In this document: positions 24,752 to 54,023 of the stretch, one piece after another
Position numbering within the stretch: the stretch's first letter is position 1
How the letters are laid out: every line of letters begins with the position of its first letter
NCBI GenBank assembly: GCA_031082005.1
Contig: JAVHLR010000001.1
Span: 253,251 to 317,250 of the forward strand
Direction of reading: 5' to 3'
Length of the DNA stretch: 64,000 nt
Source: Patescibacteria group bacterium
Lineage (GTDB): Bacteria > Patescibacteriota > Patescibacteriia > 2-12-FULL-60-25
The notes under the pieces: model-generated
Database searches by the model: none
Told to the model about the DNA's origin: nothing
The model's input: the letters and a program-made list of their open reading frames with translations, nothing else
Position numbers and translations under genes: made by a program

Positions 24752-24787
24752 AACATAAAATCCCGATTTGCATCGGGATTTTATGTT
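24752..24787 (-). terminator. Terminator of rnpB
   Basis: A perfect 16-bp stem with a 4-nt loop ends within 2 bp of the rnpB 3' end. Its tip is the same 19-nt sequence as a hairpin inside rnpB (25110-25133). Confidence 0.85.
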
Positions 24788-24788
24788 T

Positions 24789-25324
24789 GAGCTGGACGAT
24801 AAGCCGAATTTTGTCGGCTGACTTGCGTCAACCGGATGATCATCTATCTGGCACGTGCATTGCTGCACGGCTCAAGCGAGCTACCAGTTCTTCACCGCAG
24901 CCGAAGCCGCGGATCGGATCTTGCTCTTGCACCAGAGAGGGTTTACCACGCACCGCTGTCACCAGCGGCGGAGAAGCGTAGCAGTCGACTTGCGTCGAAC
25001 CACCTCGTTTCACTTTTCACCTTTCTCCTCCAAAGCTCCGAAGAGCGGTGGGGGATAGTATAGTCTCTGTGGCATCCCGATGCTCATCCGAGCAAGCTCG
25101 GACTCGTTCGGGATCCCGATTTGCATCGGGACTTTCCCTGGGTTTACGGAAAGGCTTTGGACGCATCTCGTCGTTTTTACGCGACTTGATACGATGACAT
25201 CGTCTATTCCGCCATATCCCGGCCGCCGTTAGCGGCTCTCGCTTTCCGACGACATTGCTGTCGCCTCGGTGTTCGGACTTTCCTCCCCGACGTGACGTCG
25301 GGGTAATCATCTGTCCAGCTCGAA
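24789..25324 (-). ncRNA. rnpB: RNase P RNA (bacterial type A, enlarged)
   Basis: This is the catalytic RNA that removes tRNA 5' leaders. Reading the minus strand, the 5' end GAGCTGGACAGATG is followed by the P4 strand GAGGAAAGTCCGAACAC (25269-25285). Next come the CCACAGAGACTATAC element (25058-25072), AGGTGAAAAGTG, the tRNA-CCA binding loop GTGGTAAACCC, GCTTGAGCC, and AGATAGATGATCATC. The 3' end is ATTCGGCTTATCGTCCAGCTC-like, pairing with the 5' end. About 535 nt is far longer than E. coli (377 nt). The excess lies mostly between the first two elements, about 196 nt versus roughly 50. It has its own strong promoter and terminator. Confidence 0.93.
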
Positions 25325-44015: not shown

Positions 44016-44130
44016 GTAGCCATAAGGAAGGCTGGGTCACGTCTGGCGTGGTAGGGATGATGTTGCCTTGGCCGAAGGGGTATGAGGATGCGTGGGCGTA
44101 AGACGGCACGTCTGCTATCATGGCACAGAT

Positions 44131-44988
44131 ATGAAGAAGATTTTTTTTGTTTCCGCGGCGCTGTTCATCTTACTACCGCTCGCCGTTTCAGCCGCTTCCG
44201 TCGACGCCCTGAATAGCCGCGTGTCATCCGAGAAAAGTGCGCTTAAAGCCGATGGCATCGAGAACTCCACGGTCACCGTCACGGTAAAAGACATCAACCT
44301 TGCCGCATTAAGTGGTGCCAAGGTAGTCCTGACGTCGTCTCGTGGCAAAGTCGACGAGATCCGCATCGAAAGCGATGTCACCGATTCTTTAGGCAAGGCA
44401 TATTTCCTCGTTTCATCGCTCAAGAACGGCAGCTCCGTCTATTCCGCGACAGCCGACGGTGTCCTGATCCAGCGAAATGTATCCATCGAATATTCGGGCG
44501 GTTTGAGTTGGGATATCAAAGTCGGCGACCTCATCAAAATCCCGGATGATGGAGATATGAGCACGTTGAATGACACTGCCGTATATTATTACGGCGCTGA
44601 CGGAAAACGCTACGTCTTCCCCAACGAAAAAGTCTATTTTACCTGGTACAAGGATTTCAACGCCGTTAAGACGATACCTATCGACCAGATGTCGCTCATC
44701 CCAATCGGCTCCAACGTGACCTACAAGCCGGGTTCGCGTTTAGTTAAATTCCAGACCGATACCAAGACATATCTGCCGACTAAAAACGGACAGTTGCGCT
44801 GGGTCAAGACAGAAGCTGTGGCCAGCGGTCTGTTCGGTTCTGATTGGATCCATCAAGTCGATGATATCTCCGAATCGTTCTACGTGAATTACCGTTTCGG
44901 TGAGCCGATAGAAAGCGCGCTCGACGCGCCGCTCGATATCATCCGATCGCAATCCGCCGACATCAACATCGACAAGGGATTGGAATAA
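44131..44988 (+). CDS. Secreted protein: Ig-like domain plus 'KVYFTWYKD' domain
   Basis: The start at 44131 gives a signal peptide (MKKIFFVSAALFILLPLAVS, cleavage near AASA). An invasin-like (Big_1) Ig domain spans about 28-125, with STVTVTVKDINLAALSGAKV. The C-terminal region, about 145-265, has YVFPNEKVYFTWYKDFNAVK, then IGSNVTYKPGSRLVKF, QLRWVKTEAVASGLFG and SESFYVNY. The same arrangement is found at the end of the protein encoded at 50848. I know no named family for this region. TATCAT lies 9 nt before the ATG. Copies of a repeat flank the gene on both sides. Confidence 0.82.
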   Translation: MKKIFFVSAALFILLPLAVSAASVDALNSRVSSEKSALKADGIENSTVTVTVKDINLAALSGAKVVLTSSRGKVDEIRIESDVTDSLGKAYFLVSSLKNGSSVYSATADGVLIQRNVSIEYSGGLSWDIKVGDLIKIPDDGDMSTLNDTAVYYYGADGKRYVFPNEKVYFTWYKDFNAVKTIPIDQMSLIPIGSNVTYKPGSRLVKFQTDTKTYLPTKNGQLRWVKTEAVASGLFGSDWIHQVDDISESFYVNYRFGEPIESALDAPLDIIRSQSADINIDKGLE

Positions 44989-48774: not shown

Positions 48775-50658
48775 TTATTTCGTCTGCGTAACGAAATCGC
48801 TTTTTCGTCTGAAGAGGCGTGTCGAATTCAAGATAGGCAAAAAGTCAGTCGCGAAATTGTAGAATGCAGCCAGCGCCGGCCCGGCGATACCGGTCAAGAC
48901 GAGCGCAAAGCCGATGATGTTGCTGATCGCCCAGATCAAAATATCTATTTTGACGACGGAAATCGTCCGGCGGCTCAAGTCGACCATGTCGGGGATGCGA
49001 GATAGTTCGTCGGTAAGTATAACGACATCCGCTGCTTCAACTGCGACTGCGGTGGCTGTGCCTCCCATGGCTATGCCGACGTTGGTCCTGGCCAGAGCTG
49101 GGGCGTCGTTTATCCCGTCTCCGACCATTCCGACCGCACCTTGATCGTTTATCCCGTCGATGAATTTCAGCTTTTCTTCCGGCGTCATGCTGGCGTGGTA
49201 TTCCTTGATCTTGAGTTCCCGGGCGATGCTTTTGGCTGTCGCCTCGTTATCACCCGTCAACATGACTATGCGCCTCACGCCCAAGTCTTCGAGGCGGCGC
49301 AGGCTCGTTGCCGCTTCGGGCCGCGGGATATCCGAGACAGTTACGCTACCGGAGAATTTCCTGTCGAAAAATACGAAGAAATTGGTTTTTTGGTGGCCGT
49401 TATCCCGTTCCTGGATAGCCTTGGCTTGTTTTTCCGGCAGCGCCAGCTCGAACTCTTCCAAGATCTTTTCGCTCCCTAAGATTATCTCCTGTCCGGAATG
49501 GGTGACTCTTACGCCCGCCCCTTTTGCGACTTCGAAATTTTCCGGATCAGGGATTGACTCGAATTTTCCTGCAGCCTGTCGATAGACGGCCTTGCCCACG
49601 CTGTGTTCGGAGAATTTTTCAGCAATCGCGACTTTGTACCAAAAGTCCTCTTCAGATACCCCGGGCTCGATGTGCGCTGCGGAAATATCCAGCTTACCGA
49701 AAGTCAGCGTCCCTGTCTTATCCAGAAGCAAGATCTTCAGGTCATGTAGAGCCTGCAGATATTCTCCGCCCTTGATCAATACGCCTTTACGTGCCGCCAT
49801 GCCGAGCGATGCTGTGACCGCTAAAGGTATGGCGACTGCCAGGTCATCGGCGCAAGCGACGAGGAATATGGCTGTCATCTTTGTCGCGTCCCCGGTAAGC
49901 GCCCAGGTGCCGAGACCAAGAGCGGCCACGAGGGGCAAGAAGAAACCCGCGAAACGGTCAGCCATCTTCTCGGTCGGCGACTTATGTTCCGCTGCGGAAC
50001 GCACTAGTGCGGCAATCCGTTCGATCGTGCTGTCCTTGCCAACTCTCTCCGCGCGCATCTTCACGCTGCCGCTTTCGAGCAGGGTGGAGCTCAATAGCTT
50101 GTCGCCTATGACCTTGTCGACGGGTAAGGATTCTCCTGTCACCGACGCTTCGTTCGCCGAACCGCGACCGAAGATGATGCTTCCGTCGACCGGCACGCGG
50201 TCTCCGCTCTTGATGATCACGACGTCGCCCTTCTTGACCTTATCGGCTGCGATTTCGCGTAATCCGGATTTCATCTCGACCAGTGCCGTCGATGGTTTCA
50301 GCTTGAGCAGTTCCTGCACGGCACGATGCATCCTGCGGCTCGTGCGATGCTCGAGCAGACGCGCGAAAGCCAGCATGAGTCCGATGAAGGCTGCGCTCGG
50401 GAATTCGCCGACGGCGTACGAGACGAGCACAGCGAAAGAATTGAAGACGTCGATGGTTATCTTGAAACGTTTGATCCCTTGCCAGGCTTCGACGAAAGTC
50501 GGAGCTGCAGCCAGGAATGAGACCAGCAACAGGGGATAGATGCTGGTCTGGGGGAAGCCGTACGCGACAGCGAAACCCAAGACGGTCAAGACGACTAAAG
50601 CTATCTCCAACTTTTCTTTATTGACGTCGTTATCTGCCGTCGGTTTGTTTTTGGTCAT
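48775..50658 (-). CDS. P1B-like cation-transporting P-type ATPase with altered class motifs
   Basis: About 627 residues with the core of a heavy-metal P-type ATPase: TGESLPVDK, the phosphorylation site DKTGTLTFGK, GDGINDAPAL near the end, and about eight spans. Three points differ from the metal pumps. The transmembrane CPC motif is replaced by ACADDLAVAIPLA, the HP motif is EHSVGKAV, and no N-terminal metal-binding domain exists. The substrate is therefore uncertain. The start at 50658 is the first good ATG; the upstream frame to 50709 begins with GTG. Confidence 0.9.
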   Translation of the reverse strand: MTKNKPTADNDVNKEKLEIALVVLTVLGFAVAYGFPQTSIYPLLLVSFLAAAPTFVEAWQGIKRFKITIDVFNSFAVLVSYAVGEFPSAAFIGLMLAFARLLEHRTSRRMHRAVQELLKLKPSTALVEMKSGLREIAADKVKKGDVVIIKSGDRVPVDGSIIFGRGSANEASVTGESLPVDKVIGDKLLSSTLLESGSVKMRAERVGKDSTIERIAALVRSAAEHKSPTEKMADRFAGFFLPLVAALGLGTWALTGDATKMTAIFLVACADDLAVAIPLAVTASLGMAARKGVLIKGGEYLQALHDLKILLLDKTGTLTFGKLDISAAHIEPGVSEEDFWYKVAIAEKFSEHSVGKAVYRQAAGKFESIPDPENFEVAKGAGVRVTHSGQEIILGSEKILEEFELALPEKQAKAIQERDNGHQKTNFFVFFDRKFSGSVTVSDIPRPEAATSLRRLEDLGVRRIVMLTGDNEATAKSIARELKIKEYHASMTPEEKLKFIDGINDQGAVGMVGDGINDAPALARTNVGIAMGGTATAVAVEAADVVILTDELSRIPDMVDLSRRTISVVKIDILIWAISNIIGFALVLTGIAGPALAAFYNFATDFLPILNSTRLFRRKSDFVTQTK

Positions 50659-50847
50659 TGGTTTTTTTGTGTCGCTGGTATACACAGCCTCGATCGCGCT
50701 AATTGGCACGGACTTCAGGCAGCATCATGTGAAAATTTTCTTCATCATCATATCATCCCCACGTGGCTAAGTCTCTTGGTCGAGAGGCACGGTTTACGCG
50801 GCCGTCATTCGTCAAAACGCTTCATTTTAGGTATCCTTACCCATGAT

Positions 50848-52449
50848 ATGAAACTGTCTTTGCGTAATTTTAGCGCTTTGTTATCGATTGCCTTTTTCCT
50901 GTCTTTGACGTCTGCCGCATCGGCGCAGACGACGGACTGTAAGGGCTCGAATCATCTTTTGACGGTCAAGGTGCTTTCCAGCGGTACGCCTTTGACCGGT
51001 GCGCAGGTCAAGATATATACGGACGCCAACTATCACTACGTGGCTGATGACTTGGCGCGTACCGGCATCGAAGACGCTATCGTCAACACGAACTCTATCG
51101 GTGAAGCGTGGATGGCGCTCGCTCCCGGTCACTACTACATTTCCGTGACGGCTGCCAATAACATCGAACACCGTTCCGAATACCTGATGCCGAATGATGG
51201 AGAATGCGGTTACGAAATCATCGATCTGCAGAGCAGCGCCAACTACGTGCTTGATCTGGGCAAGACGCAGGTCGCTTTGTCGCCGACTTCGATCCAAGCC
51301 GATAACGCGCAATCCGCGATTGTGACGGTCCGGGCATATAGCACGGCCAGTACGACCATGGCGTACGTGCCTGTCGATCTGCAATCCACTCTGGCCGGCA
51401 TGTATATCGAAAAGTCAGCCACCAGCACGGACAAGACGGGTTACGCCAGCTTCAAGATACGCGCGACCGTGACAGGCAGCGCGGCTTTGATGGTTTATCT
51501 GAACAACACCTTGGTGCGCACCTTAGTTTTGAAGGTGGTAGCGACCGGCTCTTTGGTCACCGAACCCGGCCAAGTGACATCCAGTTTGGTTTCGCCTTTC
51601 CTTTCCACCGTCGAAGTGTTCGGTTCGCCCGCACTGCCAGATGGGCGCACTCCGATTACGCTTCGCGTCACTGCAAAGGACGTCTCATCCAAGCCGCTGT
51701 CAGGTCAGGCGGTCGTATTGAGATCGACATTGTTGGATCTGGGTATCGACCCAGGAGTCGCTATCACGGGTGTAGACGGTTCGGCGGACTTCAAGCTCAC
51801 TTACGGACAGGTCGGCAAGAGCCTCATCACCGCCATCGCCGGAGGCGTTCCCCTTGAGCAGCGTCCGATCGTGGAATTCTTCAACCCATTCATCCTGCCG
51901 GATGGCGGTACGGGCGGAACCAGCGGCGGGACAGCGCAACCCGGCGCCAACCCTGTGCTTGCTGCCCAGCTGTGCCGTAGCACTCTTCCGCCAGGCACTC
52001 TTTATAAGATGCCGAGCGACGGTAATCCTGTGACGCAAGAGGATTCCACTGTCTGGTACATCGGCGTAGATTGTTTCCGCCATCCCTTCCCGTATTCCAA
52101 GGTCTACTTCACTTGGTACAAGGACTACACTGCCGTGAAGGTCGTGCCCAAGACCGATTTCCTGTCGTTCGCCATCGGGTCTGACGTCACGGTCCGCCCC
52201 GGCTTGGGTCTGCTGAAGATGAAGAACGACCCGCGGATTTTCGTCGTCTCCCGGCCGAGGCAACTACGCTGGATCCGTAGCCCGCAAGCCGCGGTCGATA
52301 TATTCGGTGCGCGATGGGATGCGAAGATCGTCGAGCTTCCCGAGGAATTCTACGGGGACTACGTCCAGGGCACGAGCGTCTTCAGTCGTGCGGATTATGA
52401 CGCCGCAGCCGAGCTCGATGCCGCTCCGACCCCCGATCAGGCTTTTTAA
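50848..52449 (+). CDS. Secreted protein: Ig-like domains plus C-terminal 'KVYFTWYKD' domain
   Basis: The start at 50848 gives a signal peptide (residues 1-26, ending SAASAQ). The 533 residues hold a carboxypeptidase-regulatory-like beta domain (30-140), a first Big-like domain (150-235), a second (255-355, with TPITLRVTAKDVSSKPLSGQ), and a Gly-rich linker. The 'KVYFTWYKD' region (about 415-515) has PYSKVYFTWYKDYTAVKVVP, IGSDVTVRPGLGLLKM, QLRWIRSPQAAVDIFG and EEFYGDYV. It is homologous to the end of the 44131 protein. A surface or adhesive role is inference. Confidence 0.85.
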   Translation: MKLSLRNFSALLSIAFFLSLTSAASAQTTDCKGSNHLLTVKVLSSGTPLTGAQVKIYTDANYHYVADDLARTGIEDAIVNTNSIGEAWMALAPGHYYISVTAANNIEHRSEYLMPNDGECGYEIIDLQSSANYVLDLGKTQVALSPTSIQADNAQSAIVTVRAYSTASTTMAYVPVDLQSTLAGMYIEKSATSTDKTGYASFKIRATVTGSAALMVYLNNTLVRTLVLKVVATGSLVTEPGQVTSSLVSPFLSTVEVFGSPALPDGRTPITLRVTAKDVSSKPLSGQAVVLRSTLLDLGIDPGVAITGVDGSADFKLTYGQVGKSLITAIAGGVPLEQRPIVEFFNPFILPDGGTGGTSGGTAQPGANPVLAAQLCRSTLPPGTLYKMPSDGNPVTQEDSTVWYIGVDCFRHPFPYSKVYFTWYKDYTAVKVVPKTDFLSFAIGSDVTVRPGLGLLKMKNDPRIFVVSRPRQLRWIRSPQAAVDIFGARWDAKIVELPEEFYGDYVQGTSVFSRADYDAAAELDAAPTPDQAF

Positions 52450-53350: not shown

Positions 53351-53959
53351 TTATTCACAACCACCGGGGTTGTATTTGTGGATCTTGAAGTAGGAATGGA
53401 CCCACGGTTCCCCGAACCCGGGACCGGAAAGCAAGCCGGAGTAGGGCGCGTCGATGATCCCGTACCAGGGATCGTAAATCCGGTAGGTCGTCACATAGCC
53501 AGAAGTGAAACCGGTGATGACGGCGACATGACCGGCGAACGGTCCTTGGAAACCGGCGAGAACCGGACGATCGCTGGAGAGCTCGACCTGTAGCTGGTGT
53601 TCCGAGAGCGGACCGGCTTGATAGTTGTGCGCGACATTCGCCTGCGCGAGCAGGCCGTCGATCTCGTTGCTCTGCGCAGTCTGGTTACAGTAGCCGTAGC
53701 ATCCGTAGTAACAGCATTCGAAGCCCGTCTTTGCCCTTGCTAGTTCGCATTCCTGGACGTAAGAGCCGACGTAGTTCGCGACCATCGCGATGCCTGCCGC
53801 CCAGCACCAACTTTGGCACTGCTGCGGCAAGAACATGACCGAGAGCTGGGTGCCCTCCGCTTTGATGGGCTGATCCTCGACGCCTTCATCGCTACAGCTG
53901 AAGACGACGGCCAGCAACGCGCCGAAACACGCCTGCCTGAACAAAGTCGCTATTCTCAT
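53351..53959 (-). CDS. Papain-like cysteine protease lipoprotein (C39-like/AvrRpt2-type fold)
   Basis: The start at 53959 follows GGAGGG. The 202 residues begin with a lipoprotein-like signal ending AVVFSC (Cys22). The protease domain has the catalytic Cys52 in QSWCWAAGIAMVANYVG, His144 in GPFAGHVAVITGF and Asp163 in RIYDPWYG, plus an oxyanion Gln at 46-47. It carries extra Cys (ECEL, FECCYYGCYGYCNQ and the C-terminal GGC), so it is disulfide-rich and external. The CWAA...QCELA...CC...CN order matches secreted papain-like proteases from other bacterial groups. The target is unknown. Confidence 0.8.
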   Translation of the reverse strand: MRIATLFRQACFGALLAVVFSCSDEGVEDQPIKAEGTQLSVMFLPQQCQSWCWAAGIAMVANYVGSYVQECELARAKTGFECCYYGCYGYCNQTAQSNEIDGLLAQANVAHNYQAGPLSEHQLQVELSSDRPVLAGFQGPFAGHVAVITGFTSGYVTTYRIYDPWYGIIDAPYSGLLSGPGFGEPWVHSYFKIHKYNPGGCE

Positions 53960-53994
53960 CGTCGTTCCCTCCACTTGATCGAAAGAGCGCCTCG

Positions 53995-54023
53995 ACTTTA
54001 TGCCACACATCACTACCCGTCAA
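53995..54023 (-). promoter_or_regulatory. Promoter of the 53959 protease gene
   Basis: On the minus strand TTGACG (54018-54023), 17 bp, TAAAGT (53995-54000), with the -10 35 nt from the ATG. Confidence 0.72.

Follow-up and report, generated by a model that had tools for sequence, protein, structure and literature searches.

We analysed a stretch of 64,000 nucleotides (the window) from a small patescibacterial genome (1.31 Mb, listed completeness 100%). Positions 50658..48775, on the minus strand, encode a P-type ATPase of 627 residues (gene P0001) that starts with an ATG at 50658, although translation might instead begin at the in-frame GTG at 50709. Directly downstream on the same strand is a gene for an AI-2E family transporter (PF01594; 47724..48758). 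Two plus-strand genes (44092-44988 and 50776-52449) encode secreted-looking proteins with a common C-terminal repeat (YFTWYKDF...), the longer of which has Big_1 (bacterial Ig-like) domains and adjoins the ATPase; relatives of these repeat proteins are present in loci L008, L016 and L017. The minus strand also carries a papain-family protease that looks like a lipoprotein and is similar to AvrRpt2/C70 and C39 peptidases (53351-54013), and an RNase P class A RNA (24784-25322). At 539 nt this RNA is longer than its model of 367 positions, and one stretch of 139 nt stands in place of 10 model positions.

The TGES dephosphorylation motif (residues 174-177; 50128..50139), the DKTGT phosphorylation motif (313-317; 49708..49722) and the GDGIND hinge motif (49105..49122), which forms part of GDGINDAP at residues 513-520, are all intact and encoded on the minus strand. 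A preliminary description had listed DKTGT and GDGINDAP as intact, to which TGES can be added. The fourth membrane helix (M4) reads LVACADDLAVAIPLA (residues 266-280) and carries C269-A270-D271-D272 (49843..49854, minus strand) at the position of the P1B CPCx motif. By alignment, C-P-C-A has become C-A-D-D: the first Cys is kept, Pro is replaced by Ala, and the second Cys and the next residue are both replaced by Asp. The proposed replacement of CPC by CADD was therefore borne out, on the minus strand; the loss of the CPC site is real for the proline and the second Cys, but C269 is invariant among relatives, so the loss is not complete. Two further ion-path motifs lie on the same strand: N601-F-A-T604-D605-F-L-P608 in M6 (48835..48858), in the register of the P2-type NxxS/TD motif, and Asn580 in M5 (48919..48921), which is invariant and common to the YN motif of P1B-1 pumps.

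The preliminary description had also read HS in place of HP as a change of class signature. From the translation and the family alignment, H352-S353 (49600..49605, minus strand), within SEHSVGKAV at residues 350-358, indeed occupies the HP position of the nucleotide-binding (N) domain, but 28 of 32 relatives have Pro in this column (3 have Ser, 1 Leu; the His is Gln in 2 of the 32). We dropped HS as a signal, as HP is kept by most of the family.

Several lines of evidence placed the protein, hereafter the CADD pump, on a P1B scaffold. It scored 478.4 bits against the NCBIfam heavy-metal P1B model TIGR01525 (cutoff 346.25) and also passed the cutoff of the cadmium-family model, and it fell far below the cutoffs of all specific P2, P3 and Kdp models; TIGR01522, TIGR01116 and TIGR01517 gave 109, 101 and 98.6 bits against cutoffs of 798, 703 and 507. 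In an AlphaFold2 model (mean pLDDT 82, pTM 0.71) the membrane part consists of eight helices, MA and MB among them; a large loop joins M4 to M5, and helix breaks fall at 268-270 in M4 and at 605 in M6. Foldseek and VIA-align both ranked P1B pumps at the top, with P2 pumps at about Z 24. The best VIA-align match was the P1B-4 pump CoaT (7qbz; Z 36.0, rmsd 9.4, 579 aligned), whose SPC and HEGxT motifs are absent from the CADD pump, and CopA (7r0g) gave Z 31.9, rmsd 6.3 and 611 aligned. A profile search of solved structures gave 464 bits for CopA and 172 bits for the Ca pump lmo0841. Finally, in a tree built without the M4 and M5-M6 columns, and hence without the ion site, P1B and CADD proteins together were split from P2, P3 and Kdp pumps with an SH-aLRT support of 97. 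The expectation of a P1B-type pump without a CPC site is thus supported by family models, tree and fold.

To define the family we aligned 32 homologues, which are about 35-85% identical to the window pump. Residues C269, A270, D271, D272, A274 and P278 in M4, W576, N580 and G583 in M5, and N601, F602, D605, F606, P608 and N611 in M6 are invariant in all 32, as is M95 in M2; T604 is nearly so (31 Thr, 1 Ser), giving an M6 pattern of N-F-x-T/S-D-F-x-P. Among the helices, conservation across the family is highest in M4 (mean 0.77) and M6 (mean 0.83). Because C269-D272 is invariant across this range of identity, chance or an assembly oddity can be ruled out as the source of the motif. The same residues bear on whether the gene might be degenerate or mis-assembled, or encode an inactive pseudo-pump. 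The odd motifs themselves, and nothing more, speak for this; with every catalytic motif intact and the same ion-site residues in dozens of independent assemblies, the idea is effectively refuted by conservation and we give it a negligible probability.

The family is sparsely and patchily distributed. A species-wide peptide scan of contigs recovered 27 CADD loci, one of them a C-terminal part only, plus one unrelated CPC pump; the titles of the 27 loci name Patescibacteria or merely an unspecified bacterium. A search of 287 whole Patescibacteria genomes found nine further CADD genomes besides the window's own, two of whose loci duplicate loci of the contig scan. We then took a census by DNA pattern (CADD, then a hydrophobic residue, then Ala), which matched 11 of 380 Patescibacteria genomes (about 3%), including all ten already known, and 0 of 148 Bacteroidota genomes; a reversed-pattern control on the Patescibacteria gave zero matches. 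None of the five genomes from the same family in our sample carries a CADD pump. Among the best-matching plasmid relatives we examined, the motifs were of CPC, CPG, SPC-with-acid or CSC types and none was CADD, and the sole viral-contig match resembling the pump proved spurious. So far, then, the family has been found in Patescibacteria only. It comprises two subclades, A (FYNFATDF, the window pump included) and B (L039-L044); a grouping of the two as sisters had next to no support in the ion-site-free tree (1, where the P1B split had 97).

We next compared the ion path with that of P2 and P3 pumps. The host genome itself also encodes a CPC pump of canonical type, whose M6 has MxxSS; a P3B pump of Mg type, scoring above its model cutoff; and a P2A-like pump that matches the PMR1-type Ca model best, though below cutoff. 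In a MAFFT alignment, N601 and D605 share columns, gap-free, with the NxxxD motif of P2/P3 pumps (NMFSD in the P2A pump and NLISD in the P3B pump of the same genome, NLLSD in a P2/P3-type pump, NLLYD in E. coli MgtA), and D271 falls, also gap-free, in the column of the PEG Glu. Profile-profile alignments with four P2/P3 pumps confirmed homology, with M4 gapped differently and the alignments ending before M6, and so speak neither for nor against the M4/M6 register, which therefore rests on MAFFT and on ungapped counting. By that count, A270 lies 22 residues before the conserved G292, the same spacing as between P308 and N330 in SERCA. NxxxD in M6 is absent from all other P1B proteins compared, which have MxxSS, DxGxx, HExxx, HEGGT, QExxD and similar motifs there. 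In PMCA1, the Ca2+ ligands E433, N891 and D895 form the equivalent of SERCA site II (PMC6127144), and LMCA1 binds a single ion at site II, between M4 and M6, with Glu292 equivalent to SERCA E309 (PMC11977196). As judged by sequence, the CADD residues would match the Glu/Asn/Asp of PMCA site II as Asp/Asn/Asp, with Asp271 standing for the M4 Glu.

The likeness to SERCA, PMCA, SPCA and LMCA1 (P2A/P2B) extends over the M4 acid and the M6 Asn and Asp in the same register, the Thr or Ser that precedes the M6 Asp, and the Pro that follows this Asp three positions later. The CADD pump differs from these proteins in having eight helices rather than ten, Asp rather than Glu in M4, no PEGL motif, the M4 proline of PEGL and CPC being gone, and scores far under their family-model cutoffs. 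As the pump belongs with P1B by the ion-site-free tree, by the family models and by the fold, its P2-like ion site most likely evolved convergently within P1B, on one occasion or two. The preliminary description had suggested a hard cation from the acidic residues in the ion path; this is supported, and the M6 NxxTD motif, which it missed, is the stronger evidence.

None of the P1B signatures we compared fits. The CPx/xPC motif of M4 is absent, the Pro being Ala270 in 32 of 32 homologues, as are CPC with MxxSS in M6 (P1B-1), CPC with a Lys in M5 and DxG in M6 (P1B-2), and SPC with HEGxT in M6 (P1B-4). CopA (P1B-1) and ZntA (P1B-2) resemble the CADD pump in overall fold and catalytic domains, and the M5 Asn, also found in CopA, is an ordinary P1B-1 feature, but CADD has none of their CPC, MxxSS, or M5 Lys and M6 DxG. 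For P1B-5 (Nia-type), which we take to be defined by TPC in M4 and QExxD in M6, a definition that also draws on TPC proteins found here, the final Asp alone is held in common. Two other CPC variants came to light: a further patescibacterial pump (L064) with ACPDAL in M4 and a ZntA-like M5 Lys and M6 Asp, and a CPC-less P1B-like pump on a Cupriavidus plasmid (L102), adjoining a CzcE-family gene, with TSPAEL in M4 and HLGPD in M6.

The P1B-5 comparison bears on the main competing explanation, that the CADD pump is a borderline transition-metal exporter (Fe2+, Ni2+, Co2+) of P1B-5-like kind, in which C269, perhaps together with M95, would supply the key soft ligands and the acids would assist. 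In the ion-site-free tree, which did not include Nia, the nearest lineage to CADD was the TPC/QExxD (P1B-5-like) group, with a moderate support of 86. Its patescibacterial and lactobacillar members compared here are, like CADD, short and without an N-terminal metal-binding domain, and they too have an Asp in the D605 column. Within the CADD family C269 and M95 are invariant, and a transition-metal role stays a serious rival because P1B-5 Nia has been linked to Ni2+ and Fe2+ (PMC4932525). However, the two groups differ in M4 (TPC or SPCP versus CADD) and in M6 (QExxD versus NFxTD): the CADD pump has neither TPC nor the M6 Gln-Glu pair, and its adjacent M4 Asp pair with M6 NxxTD is harder than any P1B site compared. 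On balance we regard this role as rather unlikely. Nor did the CADD pump fall inside a characterised CPC-less subgroup in the tree, the placement that the preliminary description had set against a novel substrate.

Our working model, which we hold with moderate confidence, is that the protein is a compact eight-helix pump on a P1B scaffold that probably works as an exporter, and that an oxygen-rich site for a divalent cation has taken the place of its intramembrane soft-metal site. Its ligands, transport direction, stoichiometry and substrate are inferred. The proposed ligands would be D271 in M4, at the position of SERCA E309, and N601 and D605 in M6, at the positions of N796 and D800; further contributions may come from T604, D272, N580 and backbone carbonyls where M4 is kinked. 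This would essentially be the single site of PMCA. ATP would phosphorylate D313, and an ordinary P-type cycle would export one cation from the cell. A divalent cation is proposed because the residues are hard (two Asp, two Asn and a Thr), and Mn2+ or Ca2+ would be the most likely substrate.

P2C and P3A pumps, too, have acidic residues in M4 and M6, so the acids might instead serve as proton carriers in a pump for H+, K+ or Na+, or in a counter-ion exchanger. We consider this improbable: in the compared set NxxTD with an M4 acid is a pattern of divalent pumps, and the scaffold is P1B, the class for divalents and Cu+. Within the favoured divalent-cation reading, Fe2+-like metals also stay in play, given that a Cys and an M2 Met are likewise invariant. 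NRAMP discriminates against Ca2+ through a sulphur ligand (PMC8806188), and by this analogy Cys269 and Met95 would make Mn2+ or Fe2+ somewhat likelier than Ca2+.

Gene context lent no support to Mn2+, Ca2+ or any other single ion, since neighbours, riboswitches and Nramp co-occurrence gave none. No conserved neighbour emerged among 84 flanking proteins of CADD loci, and the AI-2E transporter is shared only with L008, an 85%-identical relative. A Na/Ca exchanger and a P2/P3-type pump lie near the CADD gene at one locus (L024), and ABC-3 metal-importer genes within about 5 kb of it at two (L010 and L015), too few to use as substrate clues. At gathering thresholds, neither the window nor 32 other loci, a set that left out L032 and L034, contained a metal riboswitch. 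Nramp genes were present in 5 of the 11 CADD genomes and in 107 of the 287 background genomes, showing no association. At the divergent subclade B locus L041, a minus-strand gene for an HMA-DsbD_2-cupredoxin fusion (L041:144-1505) lies about 5 bases downstream of the pump, an arrangement suggestive of copper or redox chemistry there.

Judged against the P1B-1, -2, -4 and -5 signatures, the best reading is that the CADD family is an unnamed P1B subgroup that exports a divalent cation via an oxygen-rich site. A review assigns Fe(II) to P1B-6 and lists P1B-7 as unknown (PMC7558416), and our literature search found no description of the CADD family. The fuller proposal, that an unnamed P1B subgroup, seen so far in Patescibacteria alone, arrived independently at the ion site of Ca2+/Mn2+ pumps and so forms a minimal eight-helix Ca2+ or Mn2+ ATPase, is tentative, and we rate it slightly below an even chance. 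Names given by automatic annotation, 'heavy metal' or 'cadmium' ATPase among them, are probably incorrect for CADD pumps. The ion selectivity of P-type ATPases is usually inferred from class, and here class and substrate appear uncoupled; a heavy-metal scaffold with Ca/Mn-like residues would offer a direct test of how few side chains set selectivity.
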